Of a stretch of 64,000 bases of DNA, positions 24,450-50,399 are shown piece by piece. Where the stretch lies: positions 255,365 through 319,364 of the forward strand of contig NZ_JANDJO010000005.1 of assembly GCF_024331145.1 (NCBI RefSeq), in the 5' to 3' direction. The translations under genes were made by a program, and so were the position numbers. The stretch comes from Shimia sp. CNT1-13L.2. GTDB lineage: Bacteria; Pseudomonadota; Alphaproteobacteria; Rhodobacterales; Rhodobacteraceae. Position 1 is the first letter of the stretch, and each line of letters starts with the position of its first letter. The notes beneath the pieces are model-generated. The model saw nothing but the letters and a program-made list of their open reading frames with translations. It searched no databases and was not told the origin of the DNA.

Positions 24450-24461
24450 ACTGCTCTGATC

Positions 24462-26206: not shown

Positions 26207-26212
26207 ACCCCC

Positions 26213-26413: not shown

Positions 26414-26419
26414 CCCGAA

Positions 26420-26965: not shown

Positions 26966-26993
26966 CATCGCAACTGAATTGCGTTAAGATGTT

Positions 26994-27024: not shown

Positions 27025-27046
27025 TATCAGACGGGACCAAAGATAC

Positions 27047-29117: not shown

Positions 29118-30110
29118 ATGTATGCACAGATGATCAAGACCGCCCGCTCCGGTGTCAAAACCCGCGAGGAAATGAACGATCAGGAACGGGAATTCCAGGA
29201 CAAGATCGACAACGATATCAAGATCGAACCGCGCGACTGGATGCCTGACGATTACCGCCGCACGCTGATCCGCCAGATCGGCCAGCACGCGCACTCCGAG
29301 GTTGTCGGCCAGCTGCCCGAAGGCAACTGGATCACCCGCGCCCCAACGCTCGAGCGCAAGGCAATCCTGCTCGCCAAGGTTCAGGACGAAGCCGGCCACG
29401 GCCTCTACCTCTACTCGGCGGCCGAAACCCTCGGCGAAAGCCGCGATGAACTGGTGCGCCTCCTGCACGAAGGCCGCATGAAGTATTCGTCGATCTTCAA
29501 CTACCCGACCCTGAACTGGGCCGACATCGGTGCCGTCGGCTGGCTGGTGGATGGCGCCGCCATCGTGAACCAGGTCGCCCTCCAGCGCACCTCCTACGGC
29601 CCCTACTCGCGCGCGATGATCCGCATCTGCAAGGAAGAAAGCTTCCACGCGCGTCAGGGCTACCACGCCATCATGAAAATGGCCTTCGGCACGCCTGAAC
29701 AGAAGAAACAGGCCCAGGACGCGGTCAACCGCCTCTGGTTCCCGGCCATCATGATGTTCGGCCCCACCGACGCGGACTCGACCAACTCGGACCAGTCAAT
29801 GGCCTGGAAGATCAAGGTCAAGTCGAACGACGAGCTGCGCCAGCAATTTGTCGACCAGACCGTACCGCAAATCGAATACCTCGGTCTCGACCTGCCCGAT
29901 CCGAACATCAAGTGGAACGAGGAACGCGGCCACTATGATTTCTCGGACCCGAACTGGGACGAATTCTTCAACGTTATCAAGGGCAACGGCCCCTGTAACG
30001 TAGACCGCATGAAAGATCGCGTGAACGCATGGGAAGACGGACAATGGGTCCGCGACGGCCTTCTGGCCCACGCCCGCAAAAAAGCCGCTGCCAAGGTCGC
30101 AGCCGAATAA
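29118..30110 (+). CDS. paaA: Phenylacetyl-CoA 1,2-epoxidase subunit PaaA
   Basis: 330 residues. Di-iron ligands lie in [17 protein letters not shown] (Glu..His) and [19 protein letters not shown] (second Glu..His). PaaA is the catalytic subunit and epoxidises the ring of phenylacetyl-CoA with O2 and NADPH via PaaE. GAGGAG precedes the ATG. Followed by paaB after 21 bases. Confidence 0.97.
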
Positions 30111-30131
30111 TTTCTCTGGAGGAGATCAGAA

Positions 30132-30416
30132 ATGAAAAACGAATGGCCCCTGTGGGAAATCTTCATCCGCGGTCAGCACGGCATGAGCCACCGTCACGTC
30201 GGCTCGCTGCACGCCCCTGACGCCGACATGGCAATCAAGAACGCCCGCGACGTCTACACCCGCCGCAACGAAGGCGTGTCGATCTGGGTTGTCGAAGCCA
30301 AGCACATCTCTGCCACCGCACCGGGCGAAAAAGGCCCGCTGTTCGAACCCTCGGAGTCGAAGGTCTACCGTCACCCGACCTTCTTCGACATCCCCGAAGA
30401 AGTGGGGCACATGTAA
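30132..30416 (+). CDS. paaB: Phenylacetyl-CoA epoxidase subunit PaaB
   Basis: 94 residues: WPLWEIFIRGQHGMSHRHVGSLHAPDADMAIKNARDVYTRRNEG, the usual PaaB sequence, ending in a VGHM tail. PaaB bridges PaaAC dimers in the epoxidase complex. Its stop overlaps the paaC start (TAATG). Confidence 0.96.
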   Translation: MKNEWPLWEIFIRGQHGMSHRHVGSLHAPDADMAIKNARDVYTRRNEGVSIWVVEAKHISATAPGEKGPLFEPSESKVYRHPTFFDIPEEVGHM

Positions 30417-31180
30417 TGGCTGTCGATAAAGATAAACTGTTGCAGTTCCTGCTGCGCCAGGGTGACAATACCCTGATCCTTGGCCACCGCGTGTCGGAAT
30501 GGTGCGGCCACTCGCCGATCCTCGAAGAGGACATCGCGCTGGCCAACACCGCGCTCGACCTGATCGGCCAGACCCAAATGTGGCTCGGCTATGCCGCCGA
30601 GGTACAGGGCGAAGGCAAATCGGCTGACGATCTCGCCTTCCTGCGCGACGCCTGGGATTTCCGCAACGTGCTCCTGACCGAACTGCCCAACGGTGACTTC
30701 GGCCAGACCCTGCTGCGCCAGTTCCTGTTCGATGCCTTCCAGTCGGTTCTGATGGGCCGCCTGATGAAGTCCTCGGATGAAACGGTTGCCGCTATTGCCG
30801 CCAAGGCCTCGAAAGAGGTGGCCTACCACGTCGAGCGGTCCGCCGACACCGTGGTTGGTCTGGGCGACGGCACCGAGGAAAGCCACAACCGCATGCAGGC
30901 GGCGCTGGAATACCTCTGGCCCTACGTCGGCGAGATGTTCGAAAGCGACGACATCGATGCGGCCATGGCCGAAGCCGGTATCGCCCCCGATCCGGCAGGC
31001 CTGCGCGAGGAATACGACGCGCTGGTTGGCAAGGTTCTGACCGAAGCCACGCTGGACATCCCGGCGGCCAAATACGCCCACAAGGGCGGCCGCACCGGCT
31101 ACATGCACACCGAACACCTCGGTCACCTGCTGGCCACGATGCAGTGGCTGCAACGCGCCTATCCGGGCTGCGAATGGTGA
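30416..31180 (+). CDS. paaC: Phenylacetyl-CoA epoxidase structural subunit PaaC
   Basis: 254 residues, ferritin-like, with LGHRVSEWCGHSPILEEDIALANTALDLIGQ and KEVAYHVERSADTVVGLGDGTEESHNRM. PaaC is the non-catalytic partner of PaaA. The start overlaps the paaB stop by one base. A 9-bp stem-loop follows the stop before paaD. Confidence 0.96.
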   Translation: MAVDKDKLLQFLLRQGDNTLILGHRVSEWCGHSPILEEDIALANTALDLIGQTQMWLGYAAEVQGEGKSADDLAFLRDAWDFRNVLLTELPNGDFGQTLLRQFLFDAFQSVLMGRLMKSSDETVAAIAAKASKEVAYHVERSADTVVGLGDGTEESHNRMQAALEYLWPYVGEMFESDDIDAAMAEAGIAPDPAGLREEYDALVGKVLTEATLDIPAAKYAHKGGRTGYMHTEHLGHLLATMQWLQRAYPGCEW

Positions 31181-31187
31181 TGCGATA

Positions 31188-31210
31188 GGGGCCTTGCCCG
31201 CCAAGGCCCC
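31188..31210 (+). other. Intercistronic stem-loop between paaC and paaD
   Basis: GGGGCCTTG-cccgc-CAAGGCCCC, perfect 9-bp stem and 5-base loop, without a U-run. It may tune or stabilise the message between the epoxidase subunits and the assembly protein gene. Confidence 0.55.
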
Positions 31211-31228
31211 ACCCCAAGGAGCAAGGAC

Positions 31229-31690
31229 ATGACCCAGCCAAGTGTGAAACAGGTCTGGGAATGGTTGGAGACCATCCCCGACCCCGAGATTCCGGTGATT
31301 ACCCTCGTCGATCTCGGCATCATCCGGAACGTGGAATTCCACGGCGAAACCTGCGTGGTTTCCGTCACCCCCACCTATTCCGGGTGCCCGGCCACCTCGA
31401 TGATCAACATGGACATCGAAACCAAGCTGCGCGATTGCGGCCTCGACAAGATCGAGCTGAAACAGCAGCTGGCCCCCGCATGGACCACCGACTGGATGTC
31501 CGACAAGGCCCGCGCCGCTCTGGAAAAATACGGGATCGCCCCGCCACAACCGGCGGGCGGCCCCCAGCGCTGCCCCCACTGTGGCGGCAACCATCTCGAA
31601 AAGCTGAGCCAGTTCGGCTCGACCCCGTGCAAGGCACAATGGCGCTGCCAGGACTGTCTTGAGCCTTTTGAATATTTCAAGTGCATCTGA
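31229..31690 (+). CDS. paaD: Phenylacetate degradation protein PaaD (MIP18-like assembly factor)
   Basis: 153 residues. N-terminal DUF59/MIP18 domain (ETIPDPEIPVITLVDLGIIRNVEF, TPTYSGCPATSMINMDIE) and a C-terminal zinc-ribbon-like tail with CPHCG and CQDC. PaaD is thought to help insert the iron-sulfur cluster of PaaE or di-iron of PaaA. AAGGAG precedes the ATG. Confidence 0.94.
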   Translation: MTQPSVKQVWEWLETIPDPEIPVITLVDLGIIRNVEFHGETCVVSVTPTYSGCPATSMINMDIETKLRDCGLDKIELKQQLAPAWTTDWMSDKARAALEKYGIAPPQPAGGPQRCPHCGGNHLEKLSQFGSTPCKAQWRCQDCLEPFEYFKCI

Positions 31691-31702
31691 GGGAGGAGCC
31701 CC

Positions 31703-32779
31703 ATGGCACGTTTCCACGATCTGGAAGTCACCGACATCCACAAAACCATCCGCGACGCTGTTGTCGTGACCCTGAAACCCGTCAACGGTGCAGCCGAGGA
31801 ATTCGACTTCACCCAGGGCCAGTACCTGACCTTCCGCCAGGACTTTGACGGCGAAGAGCTGCGCCGCTCCTATTCGATCTGCGCCGGCAAGGACGAAGGC
31901 ATCCTGCAAGTCGGCATCAAACGTGTTGACGGCGGCACCTTCTCGACCTGGGCCAACGAAGACCTGAAAGTCGGCGACACGGTTCAGGCCATGCCCCCGA
32001 TGGGCGGTTTCTTCACCGCGCTGGATGCAGCGAACGAAAAGAACTACCTCGGCTTTGCCGGCGGGTCGGGCATCACCCCGGTGCTGTCGATCCTCAAGAC
32101 CACGCTCGCCCAAGAGCCCAACTCGACCTTCACGCTGGTCTACGCCAACAAGGGCGTGAACACGATCATGTTCCGTGAAGAGCTTGAAGACCTGAAGAAC
32201 ACCTTCATGGGCCGCTTCAACGTCATCCACGTGCTGGAATCGGACGCACAGGAAATCGACCTCTTCACCGGCCTCGTCACCGAAGAGAAATGCGCCCAGC
32301 TGTTCAGCACCGGCTGGATCGACATCCAGTCCGTCGACACCGCCTTCATCTGTGGCCCCGAGCCGATGATGCTCGGCATCGCCGCCGCCCTGCGCACCGC
32401 AGGTCTCGACGACAGCCAGATCAAGTTCGAACTCTTCGCCTCCTCGCAACCCGGCCGCGCCAAGCGCAAGGCCGTGTCCAAGGACGCCGCATCGGGTGCC
32501 AACCAGGCCAGCGCGTCGATCACGCTGGACGGCTCGACCCAGACCATCGACATGCCCAAGGATCTCACCATCCTCGACGCAGCCCTCGAGAACAAGATGG
32601 ACGCCCCCTACGCCTGCAAGGCCGGCGTCTGCTCGACCTGCCGCTGCCGCGTGATCGAGGGCGAGGTCGACATGGTCGCCAACCACGCACTCGAAGACTA
32701 CGAGGTCGAGAAGGGCTATGTCCTCTCGTGCCAGGCCTACCCCGTCACCGACAACGTCGTTGTCGACTTCGACCAGTAA
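31703..32779 (+). CDS. paaE: Phenylacetyl-CoA epoxidase reductase PaaE
   Basis: 358 residues. FAD-binding RRSYSICAG, NADPH-binding GFAGGSGITPVLSILK, and a C-terminal plant-type [2Fe-2S] ferredoxin domain with CKAGVCSTCRCRV and the later Cys in VLSCQAYP. It passes electrons from NADPH to PaaA. GGAGGAG precedes the ATG. Confidence 0.96.
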   Translation: MARFHDLEVTDIHKTIRDAVVVTLKPVNGAAEEFDFTQGQYLTFRQDFDGEELRRSYSICAGKDEGILQVGIKRVDGGTFSTWANEDLKVGDTVQAMPPMGGFFTALDAANEKNYLGFAGGSGITPVLSILKTTLAQEPNSTFTLVYANKGVNTIMFREELEDLKNTFMGRFNVIHVLESDAQEIDLFTGLVTEEKCAQLFSTGWIDIQSVDTAFICGPEPMMLGIAAALRTAGLDDSQIKFELFASSQPGRAKRKAVSKDAASGANQASASITLDGSTQTIDMPKDLTILDAALENKMDAPYACKAGVCSTCRCRVIEGEVDMVANHALEDYEVEKGYVLSCQAYPVTDNVVVDFDQ

Positions 32780-38714: not shown

Positions 38715-39311
38715 TTACAGCCCCTTGAGGCCTCCGAGGGTCAGCTTGCAGACCAATTCTGCATAGTCTTCCCGCGCCTTGCTGCCAGCGCCGGTATTCC
38801 ACATGTAATACCAGTTCAGCATCCCGAAGACTGACATCGTCGTCGCGCGCAGCTTCTCGGCATCGCCTTCGAAAACCTCGGGCGCATTGGCCTGCACGAT
38901 ATCACGCACGAAAACCACCATGTCCCGCTGATACCCACGCAGCAGTTTCTGCTGATCCTCCGGCAGCGCCGACATGGAACCGATCTGAACCTGGTGCTCG
39001 TGATCAGCGCCCTGATAGGCTTGCAAGGTTTCCGAAACAGCAGCACACAATTGCTCACGCGGCGACATTCCCGAAATCTCGATCCCGCAAATCCGATCCC
39101 TCAGTTCACGCAGATAGGTCTCGAGAATGTCGAACAGCAAGGCATCCTTGCTGTCATAGTAGTGGTAGATGTTCGCCTTCGAGATCCCGCACTCACGCGC
39201 CAGCATCGCCATTGAGGCGCGATCGAACCCCTCGGTTGCAAATACCTTGGCGGCGTTCGTCAGGATCTGTTCGCGCTTCTGGTCGTGGTCTTTCGCGATC
39301 GTACGGGCCAA
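38715..39311 (-). CDS. paaR: TetR-family regulator, PaaR-like
   Basis: 198 residues. Helix-turn-helix TEGFDRASMAMLARECGISKANIYHYYDSKDALLFDILETYLREL. The ligand domain is of the phenylacetate/acyl-CoA responsive type. It lies three bases after paaK, last in the minus-strand operon paaG-paaI-paaK-paaR. Three 20-bp palindromes of the form TTGACCGA..TCGGYCAA occur at paa promoters and fit a TetR dimer. Phenylacetyl-CoA is the known ligand of PaaR proteins; symbol given on context and similarity. Confidence 0.82.
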   Translation of the reverse strand: MARTIAKDHDQKREQILTNAAKVFATEGFDRASMAMLARECGISKANIYHYYDSKDALLFDILETYLRELRDRICGIEISGMSPREQLCAAVSETLQAYQGADHEHQVQIGSMSALPEDQQKLLRGYQRDMVVFVRDIVQANAPEVFEGDAEKLRATTMSVFGMLNWYYMWNTGAGSKAREDYAELVCKLTLGGLKGL

Positions 39312-39314: not shown

Positions 39315-40625
39315 TTACTCCTTGTTCCGGTTGTCGATAACACGAACCGCTTTGCCTTGGGAACGTGCCACATCGCCCGGATCACCAACAATCACCTCGG
39401 TCGACACGCCGACCATGTCCTTGATGTGCTTGGTCAGCATCCGCGCCGCGGCGGTCTTGGACAGGTTGTCGGTCGCATCCGGGGTCGCCTCGACGAAGAC
39501 GCGCATCCCGTCCATGCGGCCCGCCTTGTAGAGTTCGATCTGGAAGTGCGGTGCAAGACCACCGGTCGCCATGACCTGCTCTTCGATCTGGGTCGGGAAG
39601 ACGTTCACCCCACGCAGGATGATCATGTCATCCGAACGGCCGGTGATTTTTTCCATCCGGCGCATCGAACGGGCCGATCCCGGCAAGAGGCGGGTCAGGT
39701 CGCGCGTGCGATAGCGGATCATCGGCATGCCTTCCTTGGTGAGCGTGGTGAACACAAGTTCACCCTCTTCACCGTCCTCAACCACTTCGCCGGTCGCGGG
39801 GTTGATGATCTCGGGATAGAAATGGTCTTCCCAGATGTGAAGGCCGTCCTTGGTTTCAACACATTCGTTGGCCACACCCGGGCCAATGATTTCCGACAGG
39901 CCGTAGATGTCGACCGCGTGCATATCAAAGGCATCCTCGACCTCGAGACGCATCGCGTTGGTCCACGGTTCGGCCCCGAACACGCCAACCGAAAGCGACG
40001 AAGACCGCGGATCGATGCCCGCCTTGCGGAACCCTTCAAGGATGTTGAGCATGTAGGACGGTGTCACCATGATCCCGTCAGGCTGGAAATCGGTGATCAG
40101 GCCCACCTGCTTCTCGGTCTGGCCGCCGCCCATCGGCACAACGGTCGCACCAAGGCGTTCGATGCCATAGTGCGCACCCAGACCACCGGTGAACAGACCA
40201 TAGCCATAGGCGTTGTGAACGGTATCACCCGCACGCAGACCGGCAGCCCGCAGCGAACGGGCCAGAACGTCGGCCCACATCGAGATGTCATTCTTGGTAT
40301 AGCCCACAACCGTCGGTTTGCCCGTGGTGCCCGACGAGGCGTGCAGACGGATGATCTGTTCACGCGGTACGGCGAACAGACCAAAGGGATAGTTGTCGCG
40401 CAGATCGTTCTTGTAGGTGAACGGGAACTTGGCAAGGTCTTTCAGATCCTTGAGATCATCCGGATGCACACCCGCTTCATCGAACCGCTGCTTGTACATC
40501 GGCACGTTGTCATACGCATGGCGCAGCGACCACTTCAGACGCTCAAGCTGCGTTGCACGGATTTCGTCGATCGAAGCGATTTCAATCGGATCCAGATCGG
40601 CTTTGTTCGGGGTCAGGTCTTTCAT
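39315..40625 (-). CDS. paaK: Phenylacetate-CoA ligase
   Basis: 436 residues. AMP-binding motif IRLHASSGTTGKPTVVGYTKND, then VPMGGGQTEKQVGLITDFQPD and YGLSEIIGPGVANECVE, and the C-terminal MIILRGVNVFPTQIEEQVMA. It activates phenylacetate with ATP and CoA, the entry step. The start at 40625 has GAGGAGGA before it; an upstream in-frame ATG at 40745 lies in the paaI gene on the same strand and is not needed. Confidence 0.95.
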   Translation of the reverse strand: MKDLTPNKADLDPIEIASIDEIRATQLERLKWSLRHAYDNVPMYKQRFDEAGVHPDDLKDLKDLAKFPFTYKNDLRDNYPFGLFAVPREQIIRLHASSGTTGKPTVVGYTKNDISMWADVLARSLRAAGLRAGDTVHNAYGYGLFTGGLGAHYGIERLGATVVPMGGGQTEKQVGLITDFQPDGIMVTPSYMLNILEGFRKAGIDPRSSSLSVGVFGAEPWTNAMRLEVEDAFDMHAVDIYGLSEIIGPGVANECVETKDGLHIWEDHFYPEIINPATGEVVEDGEEGELVFTTLTKEGMPMIRYRTRDLTRLLPGSARSMRRMEKITGRSDDMIILRGVNVFPTQIEEQVMATGGLAPHFQIELYKAGRMDGMRVFVEATPDATDNLSKTAAARMLTKHIKDMVGVSTEVIVGDPGDVARSQGKAVRVIDNRNKE

Positions 40626-40644: not shown

Positions 40645-41070
40645 TCATTCTTCGAAATGCTGTCCGTTGACGGTGCGCGACACACCGCGGAATTCCGCGA
40701 TGACGACACCATCCTGATTGGTGACTTTGACGTCATAGATACCACTGCGCCCAGTCAGGGAAACTTCCTCGGCAGTCGCGGTCAGACGATCCCCGGCACG
40801 GCCGGGCGCGAGATAGCTCATGAAGGTGTGCTGCCCCACGGTTGATTTGTTGCGGCTGTTGCAGGCAAAGGCAAAAGCACTGTCGGCAAGCGAAAAGCTG
40901 ACACCGCCGTGACAGGTGCCATGGCCATTGCAGTGCTCCGGACCAACCGTCATCGACAGGACCGCGCGGCCCTCATCGACCTCGTCGATCTGCATGCCGA
41001 ACCATTTGCTGGCCTCGTCACCCGCCCACATTGCGGCGGCGGATTTCTCTGCGCGTTCCTTTGGAGTCAT
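40645..41070 (-). CDS. paaI: Hydroxyphenylacetyl-CoA thioesterase PaaI
   Basis: 141 residues, hotdog fold. Signature GHGTCHGGVSFSLADSAFAFACN with the active Asp, and TFMSYLAPGRAGDRLTATAEE. PaaI thioesterases release CoA from dead-end hydroxyphenylacetyl-CoA. Overlaps paaG by four bases (ATGA) and is followed by paaK after 19 bases. Confidence 0.93.
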   Translation of the reverse strand: MTPKERAEKSAAAMWAGDEASKWFGMQIDEVDEGRAVLSMTVGPEHCNGHGTCHGGVSFSLADSAFAFACNSRNKSTVGQHTFMSYLAPGRAGDRLTATAEEVSLTGRSGIYDVKVTNQDGVVIAEFRGVSRTVNGQHFEE

Positions 41071-41852
41071 CGGCCCTTGAACTCCGGCGCACGTTTTTCA
41101 AGGAACGAGGACACGCCCTCGGCATAGTCATCGCTTTCACCGCAGGTTTTCATCGCATCCGCCTCCATCTCGAGGTGATCCGCCAGCGTGTCGACGGCGG
41201 CGGCCTGAATGCACTGTTTGGTCAGGCCAAGGCCAAGGGTCGGACCATTGGCAAACTGTTCCGCCATCTTGCGGGCTTCGTCCATCAGGCTCTCGTCGGG
41301 CAGGGCCTTCCAGATCAGCCCCCAGTCTTCCGCCTGTTTCGCGGGCAACGGCTGCGCCGTGAACGCCAGTCCCTTCGCGCGCGCTTCACCCAACAGGCGC
41401 GGCAAATGCCAAGACCCACCGGTATCGGGGATCAGCCCCACCTTTGAGAACGACTGGATGAACTTGGCGCTTTCAGCGGCAAGCACGATATCGCAGGCCA
41501 GGACCACATTGGCACCCGCGCCAGCAGCCACACCATTCACCGCACAGATCACCGGGAAATTCAGCGAACGGATCAACCGCACCAGCGGCGCGTAAAACGT
41601 CCGCACGGTTTTCGACAGGTCCGGCTTGCCGTCCATTTTCGATGGATCGCGATCGCCAAGGTCCTGTCCGGCGCAGAAGCCGCGCCCCGCACCGGTCAGC
41701 AGAACACAGCGCGCGCCACTGTCACGCGCACCTTCCAGTGCCGCACGCAGCGCCAGATGCATTTCGTCATTAAACGAATTCAGCCGATCCGGACGGTTCA
41801 AGGTGATTTCGACCCAAGTCCCGTGGTCCTGCGCAAGAATCGTATCGCTCAC
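41067..41852 (-). CDS. paaG: 2-(1,2-epoxy-1,2-dihydrophenyl)acetyl-CoA isomerase PaaG
   Basis: 261 residues of the crotonase family: LNRPDRLNSFNDEMHLALRAAL, GRGFCAGQDLGDRD, and CAVNGVAAGAGANVVLACDIVLAAESAKFIQSFSKVGLIPDTGGSW, which hold the oxyanion hole and the isomerase Asp. It converts the epoxide to the oxepin-CoA, the substrate of PaaZ. First gene of the minus-strand operon; divergent from the FadB-like gene with a PaaR-type site in the gap. Confidence 0.93.
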   Translation of the reverse strand: MSDTILAQDHGTWVEITLNRPDRLNSFNDEMHLALRAALEGARDSGARCVLLTGAGRGFCAGQDLGDRDPSKMDGKPDLSKTVRTFYAPLVRLIRSLNFPVICAVNGVAAGAGANVVLACDIVLAAESAKFIQSFSKVGLIPDTGGSWHLPRLLGEARAKGLAFTAQPLPAKQAEDWGLIWKALPDESLMDEARKMAEQFANGPTLGLGLTKQCIQAAAVDTLADHLEMEADAMKTCGESDDYAEGVSSFLEKRAPEFKGR

Positions 41853-41891: not shown

Positions 41892-41911
41892 TAAACCGAA
41901 CGGTTGGTCAA
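41892..41911. promoter_or_regulatory. Probable PaaR operator between paaG and the FadB-like gene
   Basis: TAAACCGAACGGTTGGTCAA, a near palindrome with the core CCGAACGG. It matches the site at 48258 (opposite strand) at most positions. It lies 40 bases from the paaG start and 45 from the FadB-like start. Confidence 0.68.
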
Positions 41912-41955: not shown

Positions 41956-43989
41956 ATGTCGGAAAATCAGGTGGTCACGGTCACACACAAGGGCGATGTG
42001 GCATGGGTTGAAATCAACAACCCGCCCGTCAACGCAACCTCAACTGCCGTCCGTCAGGGGCTGGCAGACGCCGTGGCCGCTGTCGCGGGGGCGCGTGTCG
42101 CCGTTCTGAAATGCGCGGGCCGGACTTTCGTTGCGGGCGGCGACATGTCCGAGTTCGACGCCCCGCCGGTCGAGCCGCACCTGCCCGACGTTGTGCAGAT
42201 GATCGAAGACAGCCCGACCCCCTTTGTCGCCATGATGCACGGCAACGTGCTGGGCGGCGGCTTTGAAATTGCGATGGGCTGCGCATGGCGCATCGCGGCC
42301 AGCGGCACCGGCTTTGGCCTGCCCGAAGTCAACGTCGGCCTGATCCCAGGTGCGGCAGGCACCCAACGTCTGCCCCGCCTGATCGGCATGGACGCCGCCA
42401 TCGACATCGCCTGCTCGGGCAAGATCGTCAAAGCCGAAGCAATGCTGGCTCTGGGGGGCATCGACATGGTGTCCGACAACCTTGAGGCGGACGTGAACAG
42501 CTTCATTGCAGACCTGCCCGACCGCCCCACCGCGATCAGCGCCCGCGAGGTTCCCGCGTTCGCCGATGACCTGATCGAAACCAAACGTGCGGCCCTCACC
42601 AAGCGTGCGAAAGGCCAGCAGTCCCCGCTTGAAAACCTTGAAGCCTTGCAATGGGCCTTGGAGCCTTTTGCCGAAGGCCAACCCAAGGAACGCGCACGCC
42701 ACCTTGCCCTGCGCCACAGCCCCGAAAGCCGCGCCCTGCGTCACGCCTTCTTTGCCGAGCGCGTGGTTGCAAAACCCGACGCCATCAAGGGGGCCACGCC
42801 GCGTGACATCGCGTCTCTGGTCGTCGTCGGCGGTGGCCTCATGGGGGCCGGTATCGCCACCTCCGCGCTCAACGCCGGCCTTCCCGTCACCCTGATCGAA
42901 CGCGATGCCGATGCCGCCAAACAGGCCGAAACCCGTGTCCACGGCCTCCTTGAAGGGGCTGTCAAACGCGGCAAGATGACTGCGGACGCCTTCGAGGTGC
43001 ACAAGGCCGCCTTCCGCGCCGTGTCGGACTACGCCGAAGCGGCCAGCGCGCCGCTCGCCATCGAAGCCGTCTTCGAAGATGTCGCCGTCAAACGCGAGGT
43101 GTTCCAAAAGCTCGCCGCGGTCATGGCCGACGATGCCATCCTGGCAACCAACACGTCGTACCTCGACCCCATGCTGATCTTCGAGGGCATCGAAAACCAG
43201 GACCGCTGCATCGGCCTGCATTTCTTCTCGCCCGCACACATCATGAAGCTGCTCGAGATCGTGAAAACCCCGCACACCAGCGCCGAAGTCCTCGCCACCG
43301 GCTTTGCCCTGGGCAAACGCCTGCGCAAGATCTCGGTCCTGTCCGGGATCTGCGACGGCTTTATCGGCAACCGCATCCTTGCCGCCTATCGCCGCGCCGC
43401 CGACTACCTTCTGGCCGATGGCGCCCTGCCCTATCAGGTCGACGCCGCGATGCGCAAAATGGGCGTTCCGATGGGCCCCTATGAAATGCAGGATCTCACC
43501 GGTCTCCAAATCGCCTGGGCCAACCGCAAGCGTCAGGCCGCCACGCGTGATCCGAACGAACGCTATGTGACCATCGCCGACCAACTCTGCGAAATGGACC
43601 GCCTTGGCCAGCGCACCGGCAAGGGCTGGTACACCTACGAAGAGGGCAATCGCAAACCCCTCCGCGACCCCGAAGTCGAGGCCATCGTCGAGGCCTACTC
43701 GGCACGAAACGGCATCACCCGCCGCGCCTTTACCGAAGAGGAAATCGCCGGTCGCCTTCTTGCTGTCATCGCCAACGAAGGCGCCCTGATCGTGCAGGAA
43801 GGAATCGCCGAACGCGCCGCTGACGTCGATATGGTCAAGGTCCACGGCTACGGCTTCCCCCGCTGGCGCGGCGGCCCGATGCAATACGCCAAGGAAATCG
43901 GATTGGAAAAATCCAAGGAATTCATGCAGCTGGTGGCAACAGACAGCCCCGGCTCATGGAAAGTCGCCTCTTGGAAAGGGGTGGTTTGA
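41956..43989 (+). CDS. FadB-like enoyl-CoA hydratase / 3-hydroxyacyl-CoA dehydrogenase
   Basis: 677 residues with two parts. Residues 1-190 form a crotonase domain (VLKCAGRTFVAGGDMSEF, VAMMHGNVLGGGFEIAMGCAWRIAA, GLPEVNVGLIPGAAGTQRLPR). From about 280 a dehydrogenase begins with SLVVVGGGLMGAGIATSALNAG and continues with LATNTSYLDP, GLHFFSPAHIMKLLEIV and FIGNRILAAYRRAADYLL. In this locus it would replace separate PaaF and PaaH, which are not present in the window. It is divergent from paaG and under the PaaR-type site at 41892. Confidence 0.9.
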   Translation: MSENQVVTVTHKGDVAWVEINNPPVNATSTAVRQGLADAVAAVAGARVAVLKCAGRTFVAGGDMSEFDAPPVEPHLPDVVQMIEDSPTPFVAMMHGNVLGGGFEIAMGCAWRIAASGTGFGLPEVNVGLIPGAAGTQRLPRLIGMDAAIDIACSGKIVKAEAMLALGGIDMVSDNLEADVNSFIADLPDRPTAISAREVPAFADDLIETKRAALTKRAKGQQSPLENLEALQWALEPFAEGQPKERARHLALRHSPESRALRHAFFAERVVAKPDAIKGATPRDIASLVVVGGGLMGAGIATSALNAGLPVTLIERDADAAKQAETRVHGLLEGAVKRGKMTADAFEVHKAAFRAVSDYAEAASAPLAIEAVFEDVAVKREVFQKLAAVMADDAILATNTSYLDPMLIFEGIENQDRCIGLHFFSPAHIMKLLEIVKTPHTSAEVLATGFALGKRLRKISVLSGICDGFIGNRILAAYRRAADYLLADGALPYQVDAAMRKMGVPMGPYEMQDLTGLQIAWANRKRQAATRDPNERYVTIADQLCEMDRLGQRTGKGWYTYEEGNRKPLRDPEVEAIVEAYSARNGITRRAFTEEEIAGRLLAVIANEGALIVQEGIAERAADVDMVKVHGYGFPRWRGGPMQYAKEIGLEKSKEFMQLVATDSPGSWKVASWKGVV

Positions 43990-44067: not shown

Positions 44068-45090
44068 ATGGCTAAATTCTCGAAAATCACCTCGCTTCTG
44101 GCCGGCGCCACCATGGCTCTGTCGGCAGCCGCGGCCTTTGCAGCGGACCACACCCTCGTGATCTCGTCGTGGGCGCCGCCGACCCACGGCATCAACGCCA
44201 AGATGTGGCCCAAGTTCATCGAGATGGTTGAGGAAGCCACCGACGGCAAGGTGACCGCCGAACTCAAGCTGGGCATCGCCCCGCCGCCGGCTCAGATGGA
44301 CCTGATCATGGACGGCGCAGCCGACGCATCGATCATCTTCCACGGCTATCAGGCTGGTCGTTTCGTCACCACCAAGATGATCGAACTGCCGGGCTACGAA
44401 GGTTCTGCCGAAGCAGCTTCGGTTGCCTACTGGCGCGCCTACGAAAAGTACCTGTCCAAGGCCAACGAGCACCGCGGCGTGAAACTGATCGCCCTGCACA
44501 CCCACGGCCCGGCCCAGCTGCACTCGAACAAGGCGGTCACCGCCATGGATGAGATCGCAGGTCTGAAAGTCCGCATCCCCGGTGGTGTTGGCGGCGACGT
44601 TGGCGCGGCTCTGGGTGCAACCGGCATCGCGGTTCCGGCCCCGAAAGTCTATGAAACCCTCGCATCGAACGCAGCCGACGGTGTTGTCATGCCGTTTGAA
44701 TCGCGCAAGGGCTTCAAACTGACCGAAGTTGCCAAGAACGTCTACGAAGTTCCGGGTGGCCTGTACCGTGGTTCCTTCGCCTTCATCATGAACGAAGACA
44801 CCTTTGCCGATCTGCCGGCCGACCTGCAAAAAGCCCTCGACGAAAAAGTCTTCGGCGAACCGCTGTCGCGTGAAATCGGCAAGATCTGGGACGAGATCGA
44901 CACCATCGGTCGTGACGCCACCACCACTGCCGAAGGCAACGCCATCAACGCCGCGTCTGCCGCTGACCTGGAAAAGTTCAACGCCATCGCAGCTGACGTA
45001 CGCGCCAAAGTCATCGCCGAAGTCACCGACGCAGGCATCGACGGCCAGGCCGCATACGACATGATCAAAGCGGAAATGGCGGCTCAATAA
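44068..45090 (+). CDS. TRAP transporter substrate-binding protein (DctP family)
   Basis: 340 residues. A Sec signal peptide (KITSLLAGATMALSAAAAFA, cleavage around residue 25) is followed by the periplasmic DctP fold: SWAPPTHGINAKMWPKFIEMVEEAT, ELPGYEGSAEAASVAYWRAYEKYL, and LKVRIPGGVGGDVGAALGATGIAVPAPKVYETL, with the carboxylate-binding Arg in KVRIPGG. The ligand is an organic acid, unknown. AGGGAGG precedes the ATG. A strong stem-loop after the gene would keep this component in excess of the membrane subunits. Confidence 0.9.
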   Translation: MAKFSKITSLLAGATMALSAAAAFAADHTLVISSWAPPTHGINAKMWPKFIEMVEEATDGKVTAELKLGIAPPPAQMDLIMDGAADASIIFHGYQAGRFVTTKMIELPGYEGSAEAASVAYWRAYEKYLSKANEHRGVKLIALHTHGPAQLHSNKAVTAMDEIAGLKVRIPGGVGGDVGAALGATGIAVPAPKVYETLASNAADGVVMPFESRKGFKLTEVAKNVYEVPGGLYRGSFAFIMNEDTFADLPADLQKALDEKVFGEPLSREIGKIWDEIDTIGRDATTTAEGNAINAASAADLEKFNAIAADVRAKVIAEVTDAGIDGQAAYDMIKAEMAAQ

Positions 45091-45105
45091 GCCCCGCTTC
45101 CACCG

Positions 45106-45134
45106 CGGGCCCGGCTGTTCCCTTGCCGGGCCCG
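45106..45134 (+). other. Stem-loop between TRAP binding-protein and membrane subunit genes
   Basis: CGGGCCCGGC-N9-GCCGGGCCCG followed by TTTCCT: perfect 10-bp stem. A partial terminator or message stabiliser; common between binding protein and membrane subunit genes. Confidence 0.65.
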
Positions 45135-45171
45135 TTTCCTCCACTCCCCCGTTTGATGAAAGGCCCGCCCC

Positions 45172-45678
45172 ATGGCTGCGCTGCTTCACATCATCCGCAG
45201 GCTAAGCAACATTCCTGTTCTTGTCGCTTCCGCTGCGCTCTTCATTCTCATGGTCATGACCTTCTGTGACGTTGTCCTGCGGTCGGTCTTTAACGCGCCC
45301 ATCGAGGCCGCGACCGAACTGACCCGCATCCTCATGGCCATCCTCGTCTTCGCGGTTCTGCCTGTTGTGTCGTCCCGCAATGATCACATCGCGGTTGACC
45401 TGACCGACGGCATCTTTGCCCGTCTGCGCCTGAGCCACATCCGTGACGGCATCATCTTCATCGGCTCGGGCATCATGCTCTACTGGCCGATCAAGCGCGT
45501 CTACGTTCTGGCGGAACGCGCCCGTGACTATGGTGACGTGACCGAATACCTGGCCATCCCGCAGTTCTATGTCGGCTGGTTCATCACCATCTTCACCGCC
45601 ATCGCCGCTGTCGCCATGATCGTGACCGGCATCCTGCATTTCGTTGCACCCCATCTTCTGACGGAGCGCCGCACATGA
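45172..45678 (+). CDS. TRAP transporter small membrane subunit (DctQ type)
   Basis: 168 residues with four hydrophobic helices: NIPVLVASAALFILMVMTFCDVVLRS, ILMAILVFAVLPVVSSRNDH, GIIFIGSGIMLYWPIKRVY and WFITIFTAIAAVAMIVTGILHF. The SRNDHIAVDL segment after the second helix is typical. The stop overlaps the start of the large subunit gene (ATGA). Confidence 0.9.
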   Translation: MAALLHIIRRLSNIPVLVASAALFILMVMTFCDVVLRSVFNAPIEAATELTRILMAILVFAVLPVVSSRNDHIAVDLTDGIFARLRLSHIRDGIIFIGSGIMLYWPIKRVYVLAERARDYGDVTEYLAIPQFYVGWFITIFTAIAAVAMIVTGILHFVAPHLLTERRT

Positions 45679-47027
45679 CCGCCGCACTCATTGGTTTCGC
45701 CATCGTTCTTCTGCTGGTGCTGGTGCGCCTGCCCATCGTCTTTGCCATGGGCCTCGTTGGCACCCTCGGCTTCGCCTACGAACGGGGCGGCTCTATTCTC
45801 TCCGAACGCGGCCTCAAGGCCGCCATGTCCATGGTCGGACGCCAGATCACCGACACCGCGCAAGACTATGGCCTGTCGGTTGTGCCCCTCTTCATCCTGA
45901 TGGGTCTCTTCGTGAACAAGGGCGGCATGGCCAAGGAACTCTACGCCGTGTCCAACGCCTTCCTCGGCCACCTGCGCGGCGGTATCGCCATGGCCACCGT
46001 GGCCGCCTGTGGTGGTTTCTCGGCCATCTGCGGATCGTCGCTGGCCACCGCGGCCACCATGTCCAAGGTCGCCATGCCCGAGATGCGCCGCTACGGATAT
46101 TCCGACGAACTGTCGACCGCCTCGATCGCGGCAGGCGGCACGCTCGGCATCCTGATCCCGCCGTCGGTGATCCTCGTGATCTACGGCCTGCTGACCGAAA
46201 CCTCGATCGGCAAGCTGTTCATGGCTGGCATCCTGCCCGGCGCGATGGGCATCCTGTTCTATCTCTTCGCCGTACGCTGGACCGTTTGGCGCAATCCGAA
46301 CTCGGGCCCTGCGGGCGAACGCGCCAGCTGGACTGAGCGTCTTCTTGCCCTGAAATCGGTCTGGGCCGTACTGCTGCTGTTCTTCCTGGTGATCGGCGGC
46401 CTCTACGGTGCCTTTGATTTCTACCCGCTGAACCTGACCTTCTCGCCGACCGAGGCCGCAGGCATGGGCGCGATGGGTGCCTTCCTGATCGCCCTGTCGC
46501 GTGGTGGCCTGACCATCAAGTCGACCCTCGAAGTTCTCAAGGAAACCACCTTCACCGCCGCGGCCCTGTTCTCGGTTCTGATCGGTGCGCAGATCTTCTC
46601 GAACTTCATCAACCTCGCGGGCCTGCCCGAAGCGCTGATCGCCATGGTCACCGCCTATGACGTGCCGAACTTCATGGTCATCCTGATGATACTCGGCATC
46701 TACATCATCCTGGGCTGTGTCTTTGAATCGCTCTCGATGCTGCTGCTGACCGTGCCGATCTTCTTCCCGCTGGTGACCTCGCTTGGTTACGATCCGATCT
46801 GGTTCGGCATCGTTGTGGTTGTCGTGACCGAGATCTCGCTCATCACACCGCCCGTTGGCCTGAACGTGTTCATCCTCAAGGGGGTTGTCGGCGACGTCTC
46901 CACCGGCACCATCTTCAAGGGCGTGACCCCGTTCTGGATCGCCGACATCTTCCGCCTCGCGCTGATCGTGCTGATCCCCTGGATCGTGCTCGTCCTGCCC
47001 GAGCAGATGGGCTCGCTGGGTCACTGA
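45675..47027 (+). CDS. TRAP transporter large permease subunit (DctM type)
   Basis: 450 residues with about 11-12 hydrophobic segments. IAMATVAACGGFSAICGSSLATAATMSKVAMPEMRRYGYSDELSTASIAAGGTLGILIPPSVILVIYG is the DctM sodium- and substrate-binding signature, with the second repeat in IYIILGCVFESLSMLLLTVPIFFPLV and EISLITPPVGLNVFILKGV. The stop TGA overlaps the ATG of the P450 (TGATG), so the P450 is made together with the permease. Confidence 0.92.
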   Translation: MTAALIGFAIVLLLVLVRLPIVFAMGLVGTLGFAYERGGSILSERGLKAAMSMVGRQITDTAQDYGLSVVPLFILMGLFVNKGGMAKELYAVSNAFLGHLRGGIAMATVAACGGFSAICGSSLATAATMSKVAMPEMRRYGYSDELSTASIAAGGTLGILIPPSVILVIYGLLTETSIGKLFMAGILPGAMGILFYLFAVRWTVWRNPNSGPAGERASWTERLLALKSVWAVLLLFFLVIGGLYGAFDFYPLNLTFSPTEAAGMGAMGAFLIALSRGGLTIKSTLEVLKETTFTAAALFSVLIGAQIFSNFINLAGLPEALIAMVTAYDVPNFMVILMILGIYIILGCVFESLSMLLLTVPIFFPLVTSLGYDPIWFGIVVVVVTEISLITPPVGLNVFILKGVVGDVSTGTIFKGVTPFWIADIFRLALIVLIPWIVLVLPEQMGSLGH

Positions 47028-48214
47028 TGTTCATCCTGACGGACCTGCCGGACGGGTTTCACGAGAACCCCTACCCGCACTACAGGCGGTTGCGTGAAGA
47101 CGCACCCGCCTGCCTGCAACCGGATGGCAGCGTGGTGGTGTCGCGCTATGCAGACCTTGATCGCATCTACCGCGACACCACCACCTTCATCTCGGACAAG
47201 AAAGCGGTCTTCGGCCCCAAGTATGGCGTCGACTCGCCGCTTTACGAACACCACACCAATTCGCTTGTCTTCAACGACCCGCCCCTGCACACCCGCGTGC
47301 GCAAGGTCATGGTCGGCGCGATGAACCCGCGTGCCCTGGCACAGATGGAACCCGGTCTCGAACTCCTGATCGCGGGCCTTCTCGACGAGATGGAAGGCAA
47401 GGGCGAGGTTGAGCTGATCGAAGCCTTTGCCGGCGCCATCCCCATCGAGGTGATCGGCAACCTGCTTGGCATTCCCCGCGATCAACGCGATCCGCTGCGG
47501 GACTGGTCGCTTGCCATCCTCGGCGCTCTGGAACCCCAGCTGACGCAGGAACAAGAAGCGCATGGCAACCAGTCGGTCACGGATTTCAAGGCTTTCCTGC
47601 GCACCATCATCGAAGACCGCAAGGCCAACCCCGGCGATCCCGAAGTCGACGTGCTGACCCGCCTGATCCACACCGAAGGCGATCACCTGACCGAGGTGGA
47701 ACTCTACCAGAACTGCATCTTCATCCTGAATGCGGGCCACGAGACGACGACCAACCTGATCGGCAATTCGCTTGCGCTTCTGGATCAGCACCGTGATAAA
47801 CGTGCCGAACTCATCGCGAACCCGGCCCTGATCAACACCGCGGTTGACGAATTCCTCCGAATGGAAAGCCCCAACCAGTTTGGCAACCGGCTCACCACGG
47901 CCGAAATCGAACTACACGGTCTGACCATCCCCGCAGGCACCGACATCCATCTCTGCATGGGCGGCGCCAATCGCGATCCCGAACAGTTCGCCGATCCCGA
48001 CGAAATGAAACTCGACCGCCGCCCCAACAAGCACCTCGCCTTTGCCGGCGGCGCGCATACCTGCGTCGGCCTGACCCTGGCGCGCATGGAAGGCCGTATC
48101 GCAGTGGGTCGGTTCCTGGAACGCTATCCAAACTATGAAATCCAGCCCGGCGCAGAACGCGGCGGTCGCGTCCGCTTTCGCGGCTACGCGCGCCTCCCGG
48201 CGCGTCTGACCTGA
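47027..48214 (+). CDS. Cytochrome P450
   Basis: 395 residues, soluble class I type without a membrane anchor. I helix FILNAGHETTTNLIG with the Thr pair, E-x-x-R in NTAVDEFLRMESPNQ, and heme Cys346 in FAGGAHTCVGLTLARMEGR. Translationally coupled to the TRAP permease. No ferredoxin or ferredoxin reductase gene is adjacent, so electrons come from elsewhere (PaaE is a possible but unsupported donor). The substrate is presumably what the TRAP system imports, perhaps an aromatic acid. Confidence 0.92.
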   Translation: MFILTDLPDGFHENPYPHYRRLREDAPACLQPDGSVVVSRYADLDRIYRDTTTFISDKKAVFGPKYGVDSPLYEHHTNSLVFNDPPLHTRVRKVMVGAMNPRALAQMEPGLELLIAGLLDEMEGKGEVELIEAFAGAIPIEVIGNLLGIPRDQRDPLRDWSLAILGALEPQLTQEQEAHGNQSVTDFKAFLRTIIEDRKANPGDPEVDVLTRLIHTEGDHLTEVELYQNCIFILNAGHETTTNLIGNSLALLDQHRDKRAELIANPALINTAVDEFLRMESPNQFGNRLTTAEIELHGLTIPAGTDIHLCMGGANRDPEQFADPDEMKLDRRPNKHLAFAGGAHTCVGLTLARMEGRIAVGRFLERYPNYEIQPGAERGGRVRFRGYARLPARLT

Positions 48215-48257: not shown

Positions 48258-48277
48258 TTGACCGACCGTTCGGCCAA
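48258..48277. promoter_or_regulatory. Probable PaaR operator before paaZ
   Basis: TTGACCGACCGTTCGGCCAA, 17 of 20 bases symmetric. Same family as 41892 and 27840. It is 91 bases before the paaZ ATG and 43 bases after the P450 stop. Confidence 0.72.
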
Positions 48278-48368: not shown

Positions 48369-50399
48369 ATGACCATCCAGCAGATTTCCAGCTTCGCCGC
48401 AGGCGAATGGCTTGCCCCGGGCGAAGGTGCCCGCAACATCGCCAGCGCGATCACCGGCGAGGTCATAGCCACCGCGGGCAACAACGCCCTCGATGCGCAG
48501 GCCATGCTCGACTATGCCCGCAAGGTCGGCGGCCCCGCCCTGCGTGCCATGACCTTCCACGAGCGCGCCAAGATGCTCAAGGCGCTGGCCCTGCACCTGC
48601 GCGAGCACAGACAGGCGATGTACGATCTGTCTTTTGACACCGGCGCAACCCAATCCGATCACATGATCGACATTGATGGTGGCATCGGCACGATGCTGGT
48701 CTTCGCCTCGAAAGGCCGCCGCGAAATGCCTGACGGCCACGTCTATCTGGATGGCGACGTCGAGCAGCTAAGCCGCAACGGCACCTTCCTCGGCCAACAC
48801 ATCTGCACCCCGCTGCAAGGCGTGGCCGTACACATCAACGCCTTCAACTTCCCGGTCTGGGGCATGTTGGAAAAACTGGCCCCGACCCTCCTGGCTGGTG
48901 TCCCCGCGATTGTGAAGCCCGCCACCAACTCCTGCTATGTCACCGAACTCGCCGTCAAAGTGATGCTCGACTCCGGTCTCCTGCCCGCCGGTGCCCTGCA
49001 ACTGGTGTCCGGCGGCCTTGGCGACATGCTCGACCGCCTGACCATGCAGGACGTCGTCAGCTTCACCGGTTCCGCCGACACCGCGATGAAACTGCGCTCG
49101 AACCCGGTGATCCTTGAAAACTCGGTCCGCTTTGTTGCCGAACAGGACAGCCTCAACGCCTCGATCCTCGGCCCCGACGCCCAACCGGGCACGCCCGAGT
49201 TCGATCTCTTCGTGAAAGAGGTCCAGCGCGAGATGACCACCAAGGCCGGTCAGAAATGTACCGCCATTCGCCGCATCATCGCGCCGGAAAACACCGTGCA
49301 GGCCGTGATCGAAGCCCTGTCCGCGCGCCTTGCGAAAACCGTGATCGGCGATCCGCGCAAGGAAACCACCCGCATGGGTGCGCTGGTCTCCAACGGCCAG
49401 AAACGCGACGTGCTGGAAAAAGCCGCCATCATCGGCCAGGAAGCTGAGCGCGTCTTCGGCAACCCCGAGGCCTTTGATGTCGACGGTGCGGATGCCGAGA
49501 AAGGCGCCTTCGTGCCGCCGATGCTGTTCCATTGCGCCAACCCCGATGCCGCCCAGCGCGTGCACGACACCGAAGCCTTTGGCCCGGTCTCGACCATCAT
49601 GGGCTATCGCGATCTCGACCACGCCATCGAACTGGTCAACAAGGGCCAGGGCTCGCTGGTCGCCTCGGTCATCACCCATGACCCGGCCGTTGCCCGCCAG
49701 GTCGCACTGGGAGCCGGCGCTTACCACGGGCGCCTCTACTTCAACAACCGCGACTCCATGAAGGAAAGCACCGGTCACGGCTCGCCTCTTCCACACATGG
49801 TCCACGGTGGCCCCGGCCGCGCAGGCGGCGGCGAGGAAATGGGCGGCGTGCGTGGTGTCAAACACTACATGCAGCGCACCGCGATTCAGGGCAGCCCGGA
49901 AATCCTCTCTGCCATCGGCGAGAAATGGGTGCCCGGCGCAACCGAGATCGAAGGTCCGGCCCACCCCTTCACCCGCAAGTATGGCGAACTGGCCATCGGC
50001 GAGACCCTGCACACCGCGCCGCGCACGATCTCGATGGAAGACATCGAACACTTCGCCAACTTCACCGGTGACACCTTCTATGCCCACATGGATCAGGAAG
50101 CCGCCGAGCGGAACCCCTTCTTCCCCGGTCGCGTCGCCCACGGCTACCTGCTGCTCAGCTTTGCCGCCGGTCTCTTTGTTGAACCCAACGAAGGCCCTGT
50201 TCTGGCCAACACCGGCCTCGACAGCCTGCGTTTCATGAAGCCCGTCGAAGCAGGCGACAGCATCAAGGTGCGTCTCACGGTCAAGAAAAAGACCAAGCGC
50301 AACGACGAATACGGCGAGGTCCGCTGGCACGTCACCCTCACCAATCAGGATGACGAGCTGGTCGCGGAATACGAACTCCTCACCATGAACGCTTACTGA
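48369..50399 (+). CDS. paaZ: Oxepin-CoA hydrolase / 3-oxo-5,6-didehydrosuberyl-CoA semialdehyde dehydrogenase
   Basis: 676 residues with two domains. The N-terminal aldehyde dehydrogenase (residues about 1-520) has FVAEQDSLNASILG and KAGQKCTAIRRII with the catalytic Cys, the C-terminal MaoC-type hydratase (from about 535) has HFANFTGDTFYAHMDQEAAERNPFFPGRVAHGYLLLSFAAGLF with the Asp/His pair. PaaZ hydrolyses the oxepin ring and oxidises the resulting aldehyde. CAGGAGGA precedes the ATG. A PaaR-type site lies upstream. Confidence 0.95.
   Translation: MTIQQISSFAAGEWLAPGEGARNIASAITGEVIATAGNNALDAQAMLDYARKVGGPALRAMTFHERAKMLKALALHLREHRQAMYDLSFDTGATQSDHMIDIDGGIGTMLVFASKGRREMPDGHVYLDGDVEQLSRNGTFLGQHICTPLQGVAVHINAFNFPVWGMLEKLAPTLLAGVPAIVKPATNSCYVTELAVKVMLDSGLLPAGALQLVSGGLGDMLDRLTMQDVVSFTGSADTAMKLRSNPVILENSVRFVAEQDSLNASILGPDAQPGTPEFDLFVKEVQREMTTKAGQKCTAIRRIIAPENTVQAVIEALSARLAKTVIGDPRKETTRMGALVSNGQKRDVLEKAAIIGQEAERVFGNPEAFDVDGADAEKGAFVPPMLFHCANPDAAQRVHDTEAFGPVSTIMGYRDLDHAIELVNKGQGSLVASVITHDPAVARQVALGAGAYHGRLYFNNRDSMKESTGHGSPLPHMVHGGPGRAGGGEEMGGVRGVKHYMQRTAIQGSPEILSAIGEKWVPGATEIEGPAHPFTRKYGELAIGETLHTAPRTISMEDIEHFANFTGDTFYAHMDQEAAERNPFFPGRVAHGYLLLSFAAGLFVEPNEGPVLANTGLDSLRFMKPVEAGDSIKVRLTVKKKTKRNDEYGEVRWHVTLTNQDDELVAEYELLTMNAY

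Follow-up and report, generated by a model that had tools for sequence, protein, structure and literature searches.

A TRAP transporter and a cytochrome P450 in the phenylacetate operon of Shimia sp. CNT1-13L.2 as two probably separable accessories

The window, a stretch of 64,000 nucleotides from contig NZ_JANDJO010000005.1 of Shimia sp. CNT1-13L.2, carries a set of phenylacetate (PAA) pathway genes in which a TRAP transporter directly precedes a cytochrome P450 (Table 1). The three genes dctP, dctQ and dctM stand side by side, and each product scores over its Pfam cut-off, as in DctPQM-type TRAP transporters. By eye, the start of DctP resembles a signal peptide; in the profile search the protein falls under the cut-off of TIGR00787 and narrowly under that of NF037995, and DctQ has no NCBIfam match. 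Profile matches place a FadB-like gene and paaZ on the two sides of the TRAP-P450 genes, as the original prediction had stated, and the annotation of Ruegeria sp. THAF33 has the identical gene order from the FadB-like gene on. The homogentisate block is located upstream of the thiolase-paaABCDE block. The TetR-family regulator beside paaK is likely PaaR, a name derived from its position and from the operator described below.

Table 1 Genes and operators at the TRAP-P450 locus and in its surroundings (window positions)
Feature	Position	Strand	Remarks
Homogentisate block: hmgA, fahA, metallohydrolase-like gene, FAD monooxygenase, maiA	20913..27685	+	profile matches
paaABCDE epoxidase genes	29118..32779	+	profile matches; PaaE 415.0 bits, just below the cut-off of 420.8
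TetR-family regulator beside paaK	38715..39311	-	TetR-family matches, all below cut-offs
paaK, phenylacetate-CoA ligase	39315..40625	-	TIGR02155 over cut-off
paaI, thioesterase	40645..41070	-	TIGR02286 over cut-off
paaG, leads the divergent paaG-paaI-paaK group	41067..41852	-	TIGR02280 over cut-off
PaaR-type operator ACCGAACGGTTGGT	41895..41908		divergent paaG / fadB-TRAP-P450 promoter
FadB-like hydratase/3-hydroxyacyl-CoA dehydrogenase, upstream flank	41956..43989	+	opens the operon; start deduced from its ORF and from the annotation of a relative
DctP, TRAP solute-binding protein	44068..45090	+	PF03480 85.5 bits, over cut-off
DctQ, small TRAP permease subunit	45172..45678	+	PF04290 54.8 bits, over cut-off
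DctM, large TRAP permease subunit	45675..47027	+	PF06808 319.9 bits, TIGR00786 300.8 bits, both over cut-off
Cytochrome P450, 395 aa, unfused	47027..48214	+	PF00067 95.9 bits, over cut-off
PaaR-type operator ACCGACCGTTCGGC	48261..48274		gap between P450 and paaZ
paaZ, downstream flank	48369..50399	+	TIGR02278 992 bits, cut-off 562.8

Both gene overlaps described in the original prediction are present in the sequence: the TGA stop of dctM (47025-47027) has one base in common with the ATG of the P450 gene (47027-47029; TGATG), and the four-base overlap of dctQ and dctM is ATGA (45675-45678). The exact TGATG junction recurs in 21 of 27 dctM-P450 loci of relatives, which exceeds chance; the spacings in the other six are −4 nt (three loci, with a TTG start assigned by our own start rule), 1, 3 and 231 nt. 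However, 5 of 6 Planktotalea-type loci have a 4-nt overlap between the dxs stop and a P450 of the same family, so that overlap alone says nothing of a common substrate, and as proof of a module it was ruled out. A hairpin between dctP and dctQ was rejected as a special element, since its fold z-score of −1.05 is not beyond that of shuffled sequences.

The P450 has the heme-cysteine motif, the ExxR motif and the acid-alcohol pair in the I helix; F339, H344, C346, G348, E275, R278 and A236-T242 are invariant in an alignment of 36 rows, and the predicted model reaches a pLDDT of 92. All 102 family rows examined contain the motif HHTxSxxFxDxPxH and keep K58, K65 (with two exceptions), H75, H76, T77 and R383, residues that are missing from the six other P450s compared. 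The family-specific Lys, His and Arg residues fall within the predicted substrate-recognition stretches, for which we assumed limits. Among the matches listed, the identity to solved P450s is at most 34%, all nine NCBIfam P450 equivalogs are far under their cut-offs, and the nearest structures are P450BioI with acyl carrier protein, CalO2 and CYP107P2, which, judged from the predicted model, do not point to small phenols. Naming a substrate from structure was rejected because these neighbours are close in Z yet differ in substrate. With 395 amino acids, PF00067 as the sole domain and no fused FMN/2Fe-2S reductase domain, the protein is not built like a CYP116B enzyme; CYP116B and CYP199 are not among the structural matches listed, an absence that excludes neither. 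That no ferredoxin or reductase stands beside the P450 was borne out, as none of the 16 Fer2 matches in the genome adjoins it, and the only one on this contig lies inside paaE, ~14 kb upstream.

By sequence and model, the best solved relatives of DctP are 4p56, TarP_Sse and TarP_Csal, and the best 15 include 5i7i, 5i5p, 5izz and 5iga ("specific for aromatic acid ligands") and seven TarP entries; the aromatic label is that of the PDB titles, and the titles of 4p56, 4nap, 4n6d and 5im2 show no ligand. With receptors of aromatic acids as its closest solved relatives, DctP resembles the aromatic-acid receptor type, although its predicted model is weak (pLDDT 66). The aromatic solute of the original prediction is thus retained as a predicted ligand class. 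For R. pomeroyi, phenylacetate is listed among transporter targets inferred by computation (PMC8027193), and a roseobacter is described to take up 4-hydroxybenzoate via a TRAP transporter (PMC12442348).

The promoter of the TRAP-P450 operon carries a 14-bp inverted repeat of the PaaR type, comparable to the operator ACCGACCGGTCGGT of B. cenocepacia. Our consensus was first derived from the sites in the window, and the match to the published one was found only afterwards. Of 50 paa loci, 48 have such an operator at the head of the operon, a count that takes in 8 examined loci with the P450 as first gene, against a background of 3.3%; 2 of 11 TRAP-less loci are without a readable divergent gene. 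Where the P450 lies outside paa, the operator is not above background (1/46, 0/7, 0/6 and 1/4). There the P450 is therefore not visibly in the PAA regulon, and membership in it everywhere was rejected.

Among 58 named-genome loci, the P450 precedes paaZ in 36, with a TRAP transporter directly upstream in 26 and without it in 10, and in the remaining 22 it is located away from paaZ with no adjoining TRAP; the scan took its patterns from this P450 and is biased towards close relatives, and a 59th locus (L063, 32% P450) was dropped. In the 394-genome sample, TRAP genes directly before paaZ lack the P450 in 13 copies and have it in between in 12, and one further P450-less copy adjoins paaK/paaI (locus L150); of 63 DctM places, these counts cover 41 flanks that were read and the 12 TRAP-P450-paaZ sites, with 10 left out. 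Across 38 loci, the spacing between P450 and paaZ is 4-27 nt in 20 and 42-178 nt in 15, and the genes overlap in 3. paaZ is the most constant neighbour within the paa clade, while elsewhere the P450 is found near dxs, htpG and unrelated genes; of 85 P450 places in the family, all 48 at ≥58% were viewed (the window's own copy, 14 in loci of 4 kb and 33 with flanks of ≤9 kb, some clipped by contig ends) and 10 of the 37 at <52%. In the P450 tree, which excludes the duplicate loci L064-L092 and fragments of <330 aa, contains L123 as a long branch and has a bootstrap that is not settled, one supported clade (99/87) has 39 of 51 rows linked to paaZ, and the labels "TRAP and paaZ" and "paaZ without TRAP" each require at least seven changes. 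A gene order not conserved in relatives, named in the original prediction as an outcome that would refute it, is thus observed in part: one clade keeps the order, but either half can be dispensed with. In one genome without a paaZ match (G139, locus L143), a close TRAP homologue (DctM 91%, DctP 76%) lies inside a non-paa Rieske cluster, which shows that paa is not the only context of this TRAP type.

The firmest association of the P450 is with the PAA pathway, and it is seen in two families, by which we mean computed groupings around the window genome and around Variovorax sp. KK3; calling them Rhodobacteraceae and Comamonadaceae is our own choice. In the window's family, paaZ is present in 81 of 85 genomes with the P450 (E limit 1e-80) and in 107 of 309 without it (p 4e-26), with a size-stratified odds ratio of 27 in the 347 of 394 genomes whose sizes were on hand. 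paaZ is still found in 65 of 69 genomes where the two genes are not neighbours, and a control P450 shows no link (140/289 genomes with it, 48/105 without). These are plain genome counts that ignore phylogeny, set against a single control. Genomes with dctM (E ≤ 1e-150) have paaZ in 49 of 56 cases, the others in 139 of 338. In the Variovorax family (E limit 1e-110), paaA occurs in 33 of 36 P450-positive genomes and in 62 of 114 others (p 2e-5). Of 23 genomes with a P450 located outside paa, 20 have paaA. As a universal partner outside Rhodobacterales, paaZ was rejected, because Variovorax genomes have a partial match of 43-44% in 6 of 7 and otherwise none, and Hoeflea, Nitratireductor, Limnohabitans and two further P450 genomes gave no match; paaA did better. 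hmgA was present in 38/38 P450-positive and 33/38 P450-negative genomes (p 0.054) in a sample of 76 hand-picked genomes (38 of 47 with P450 and paaZ, 38 of 107 with paaZ only, the latter picked for completeness). With hmgA almost ubiquitous, its co-occurrence says little on the homogentisate route and was rejected as a test of it.

In the original prediction, TRAP and P450 form a dedicated import-and-hydroxylate module, in which the TRAP solute is the P450 substrate, translation is coupled, and an aryl-alkyl or methoxylated acid is hydroxylated at once on import into the phenylacetate or homogentisate route. The retained TGATG junction and the shared operon and operator speak for it, and a looser version can point to varied P450s near TRAPs of the same subfamily outside paa, found in 7 of 27 loci examined where ~0.5 would be expected from four P450s per genome, a rough figure taken from one genome; one of the seven (L103) is a 63% relative of the P450, divergent from the TRAP and beside a Rieske oxygenase cluster. 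However, the genes do not stay together in relatives: the same slot holds TRAP without P450 (13+1 copies) or P450 without TRAP (10/36), the tree demands repeated changes, the 22 named loci away from paaZ have no TRAP next door, and the P450 overlaps dxs elsewhere. We consider such a module rather improbable, while the connection of TRAP and P450 with the phenylacetate route stands, as seen in the cluster position, the PaaR-type operator and the co-occurrence of the P450 with paaZ and paaA.

It is also unlikely that the P450 is a general alpha- and beta-proteobacterial enzyme with a role of its own, which large versatile genomes hold along with PAA genes and which entered the paa operon once. 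Its many neighbourhoods, the lack of an operator outside paa and the confinement of paaZ-linked copies to one clade would fit, but the co-occurrence survives the genome-size strata, is missing for the control P450 and is repeated in a second class, and the P450 was kept before paaZ while its TRAP neighbour switched at least seven times. Still less probable, in our view, is a by-pass or detoxification step in which its substrate is not a free acid but the seven-membered-ring shunt product or some other intermediate bound to CoA around PaaZ. The constancy of paaZ as neighbour, the carrier-protein-bound BioI and CalO2 among the nearest structures and the family-specific Lys, His and Arg residues are consistent with this; against it, the structural ranks are nearly equal and show no function, and no paaY or tropone gene is among the families listed for the 32 ORFs scanned in the window.

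With moderate confidence, we thus favour the reading that TRAP and P450 are two separable accessories of the PAA operon, the former likely importing phenylacetate-type acids and the latter likely serving the PAA pathway. Since many relatives carry one without the other, they are likely separate helpers and not one import-and-oxidise machine. The role of the P450 likely extends beyond the imported solute to the PAA pathway as such; it is likely an undescribed accessory oxygenase of this pathway, and the TRAP transporter likely an importer, as predicted, of aryl-acetates. PaaR, released by phenylacetyl-CoA as in Burkholderia, would switch on fadB-TRAP-P450; DctP would capture aryl-acetates in the periplasm, DctQM would carry them inward and PaaK would activate them. 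The P450, with electrons from what would be an unlinked ferredoxin system, might ring-hydroxylate hydroxyphenylacetate leaked from the epoxidase and PaaI steps to homogentisate, which would feed the hmgA-fahA-maiA genes of the same region. We propose this step tentatively and regard it as doubtful; it is weakened by the narrowness for phenylacetyl-CoA reported for PaaI of E. coli (PMC4498308). Equally speculative is the idea that alpha- and beta-proteobacteria have in this P450 family an unrecognised enzyme of the phenylacetyl-CoA pathway. As a second oxygenase of the pathway, it would oxidise a side product of the epoxidase/oxepin stage, which may still be a CoA ester or a seven-membered ring.

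Among bacterial routes for aromatic carbon, the PAA pathway is a major one. If true, the presence of a second oxygenase alongside it in two classes would change the view of its leaks and side products such as hydroxyphenylacetates and tropone precursors, and a PaaR-controlled TRAP would name a high-affinity phenylacetate importer of marine Rhodobacteraceae. Our literature search, mainly of open-access sources, returned among the matches listed no such TRAP-P450 unit and no P450 in the bacterial PAA pathway. The locus shares paaABCDE, paaZ, paaG, paaI, paaK and the PaaR-type operator with the described paa catabolon under PaaR (PMC2770484, PMC9493321, PMC13186573, PMC4498308). In contrast to it, the accessible text of PMC9493321 and PMC13186573 mentions no TRAP or other transporter, and a P450 solely in a reference, and that of PMC4498308 mentions no P450. 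DctP is closest to 4p56 and the receptors of TarPQM systems (TarP_Sse, TarP_Csal, TarP_Rhp), but with 20-32% identity, and the TRAP transporter described here sits inside a paa operon. TRAP genes and a P450 also occur in one aromatic cluster of a member of the Roseobacteraceae, the PAH cluster of Sagittula sp. MA-2; there, however, the TRAP is of the TAXI type, the genes are not adjacent and the pathway is of the naphthalene type (PMC11705938). OhpT-OhpA of Cupriavidus pinatubonensis JMP134, with which CYP116B234 was grouped for comparison (PMC11889516), differs in that OhpA carries a fused reductase as a self-sufficient CYP116B, the binding protein OhpT is of the tricarboxylate-transporter and not of the TRAP type, and the neighbours described for OhpA are ohpT and ohpR, with no paa genes among those described. 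As OhpA turns 2-hydroxyphenylacetate into homogentisate (PMC8449657), this pair nevertheless offers a precedent for a transporter-component gene that adjoins a P450 serving a phenylacetate derivative.

In the window, the TRAP genes dctP, dctQ and dctM and the P450 gene are surrounded by genes for phenylacetate (PAA) degradation, namely paaABCDE, the divergent paaG with paaI and paaK, and a FadB-like gene, and paaZ is located downstream of the P450. The gene overlaps within dctP-dctQ-dctM-P450 claimed in the original prediction were borne out by the direct sequence coordinates. The closest named proteins come from Shimia, and the public annotation of a closed plasmid of Ruegeria sp. THAF33 has the same gene order; a Dxs-like gene is annotated there three genes past paaZ (locus L187). 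The hairpin between dctP and dctQ is not more stable than shuffled sequences. The PaaA/PaaC-like paralogue recurs across the window's family, in many of its paa loci. The FAD monooxygenase also resembles hydroxyphenylpropionate hydroxylases.

Features of the window and their positions
Feature	Position	Remark
Homogentisate block: hmgA, fahA, maiA, FAD monooxygenase	20.9-27.7 kb	
FAD monooxygenase of this block	24554-26206 (+)	PRK08132
PaaA/PaaC-like paralogue	32718-33551 (+)	overlaps paaE end; under family cut-offs
14-bp palindrome ACCGAACGGTTGGT	41895	divergent promoter
dctP	44068-45090	Pfam family over cut-off
GC-rich hairpin	45105-45135	
dctQ	45172-45678	Pfam family over cut-off
dctM	45675-47027	Pfam family over cut-off
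P450, 395 aa	47027-48214	Pfam family over cut-off
14-bp palindrome ACCGACCGTTCGGC	48261	before paaZ
PaaX-like regulator	50421-51317 (+)	after paaZ

A scan of named genomes gave 59 loci, 58 of them with a P450 of at least 55% identity. paaZ lies directly downstream in 36 of these 58, of which 26 have a dctM immediately preceding the P450 and 10 lack it there; the other 22 P450s follow dxs (6; L021, L023, L025, L031, L032, L033) or htpG (7), or lie among other genes (9). In the window's family, 85 of 394 genomes encode the P450 (E ≤ 1e-80) and 56 encode dctM (E ≤ 1e-150). By coordinates the P450 adjoins paaZ 15 times, 12 of them with TRAP upstream, and a sixteenth pair (genome G379) is visible in locus L123. 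Thirteen TRAP copies directly precede paaZ with no P450 in between or in the fetched flanks, and in locus L150 TRAP adjoins paaK and paaI. Since TRAP-only and P450-only paa loci exist, either part can persist at this place in the paa cluster when its partner is missing. The gene order given in the original prediction is real and kept in one clade, but the paa operon has TRAP and P450 as separately optional accessories, and the window carries both.

The TGATG junction between dctM and the P450 is present in 21 of 27 loci. Because the P450 start also shares 4 nt with the end of dxs in 5/6 dxs-type loci, such overlap is a sign of tight packing, not of a common substrate. P450 and paaZ are 4-27 nt apart in 20 of 38 loci, overlap in 3 and are separated by 42-178 nt in 15. 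In a tree of 102 P450 sequences, one supported clade (99/87) of 51 rows holds the paaZ-linked P450s (39/51), and the dxs-linked and Hoeflea/Nitratireductor copies nest inside it. The label "TRAP+paaZ" would have to change 9 times on this tree and "paaZ without TRAP" 8 times, at least 7 changes being forced by supported branches in each case. The simplest story is that the P450 entered the paa cluster once, with gains or losses of TRAP next to it.

TRAP genes of the same subfamily also lie near 42-45% relatives of the window P450 (L134, L135, L136) and near P450s of another kind (29-31%; L165, L167). A conserved ferredoxin reductase-Rieske oxygenase-CoA ligase-thiolase cluster adjoins such TRAP genes in L103, L143, L151, L153-L156, L159 and L161, with the window's P450 family in L103 and another P450 in L143.

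The P450 is tied to the PAA pathway across two bacterial classes, which is the new and checkable point. In the 394 genomes, paaZ (E ≤ 1e-200) occurs in 188, namely in 81/85 with and 107/309 without the P450 (p = 4e-26, kinship ignored); with size strata, the odds ratio is 27 for the 347 genomes of known size, kinship again ignored. paaZ is present in 65 of the 69 P450-positive genomes in which the two genes are not neighbours. One other P450 of the same genome, present in 289/394 and used as control, had no link with paaZ (140/289 vs 48/105). Among 150 genomes from the family of Variovorax sp. KK3, 36 encode the P450 (E ≤ 1e-110) and 95 paaA, the latter in 33/36 with and 62/114 without the P450 (p = 2e-5, kinship ignored). 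Where the P450 lies outside the paa cluster, paaA is encoded in 20 of 23 genomes; the other three are two MAGs with a partial paaZ match and one genome with only a 32% P450. paaZ proper is absent from the beta-proteobacteria of this set and from two of its Rhizobiales genomes.

At a threshold of at least 12/14 positions, the palindrome occurs in 48/50 divergent paa promoters of relatives vs 3.3% of random 320-bp stretches: in 26/27 loci with TRAP and P450, 9/9 with P450 without TRAP and 13/14 with TRAP without P450. Directly after it, the P450 comes as the first gene in 8/9 loci without TRAP. The window palindrome agrees with the PaaR operator ACCGACCGGTCGGT of Burkholderia cenocepacia, which PMC2770484 describes as tested by mutation; phenylacetyl-CoA releases PaaR, according to PMC9493321. 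Upstream of P450s outside paa clusters, the palindrome is at background (1/46, 0/7, 0/6, 1/4), which counts against a regulon-wide role of the P450. The PaaX-like regulator, in a cluster that bears a PaaR-type operator as well, is conserved at 28-57%, far below neighbouring genes.

The catalytic motifs of the P450 are intact. K58, H75-H76-T77 and R383 are kept in 102/102 family rows, whatever the neighbouring genes, and K65 in all but two; these residues are absent in six other P450s compared. Such family-wide conservation would fit a single class of substrate, which may be an anion. The predicted structure is good (pLDDT 92), and its nearest structures, P450BioI, CalO2 and CYP107P2 (26-33% identical, in agreement with Foldseek), point to no substrate. 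2-Hydroxyphenylacetate leaks from the PAA epoxide. In two MAG loci (L040, L041) the P450 is accompanied by paaI and no further paa gene in the available stretch. A precedent is described in PMC8449657: the bacterial P450 OhpA converts 2-hydroxyphenylacetate to homogentisate and the transporter component OhpT adjoins it. From this precedent and the P450 evidence, including the paaI-paired loci, conversion of hydroxyphenylacetate to homogentisate would be the likeliest single guess for the P450 step, and still an improbable one.
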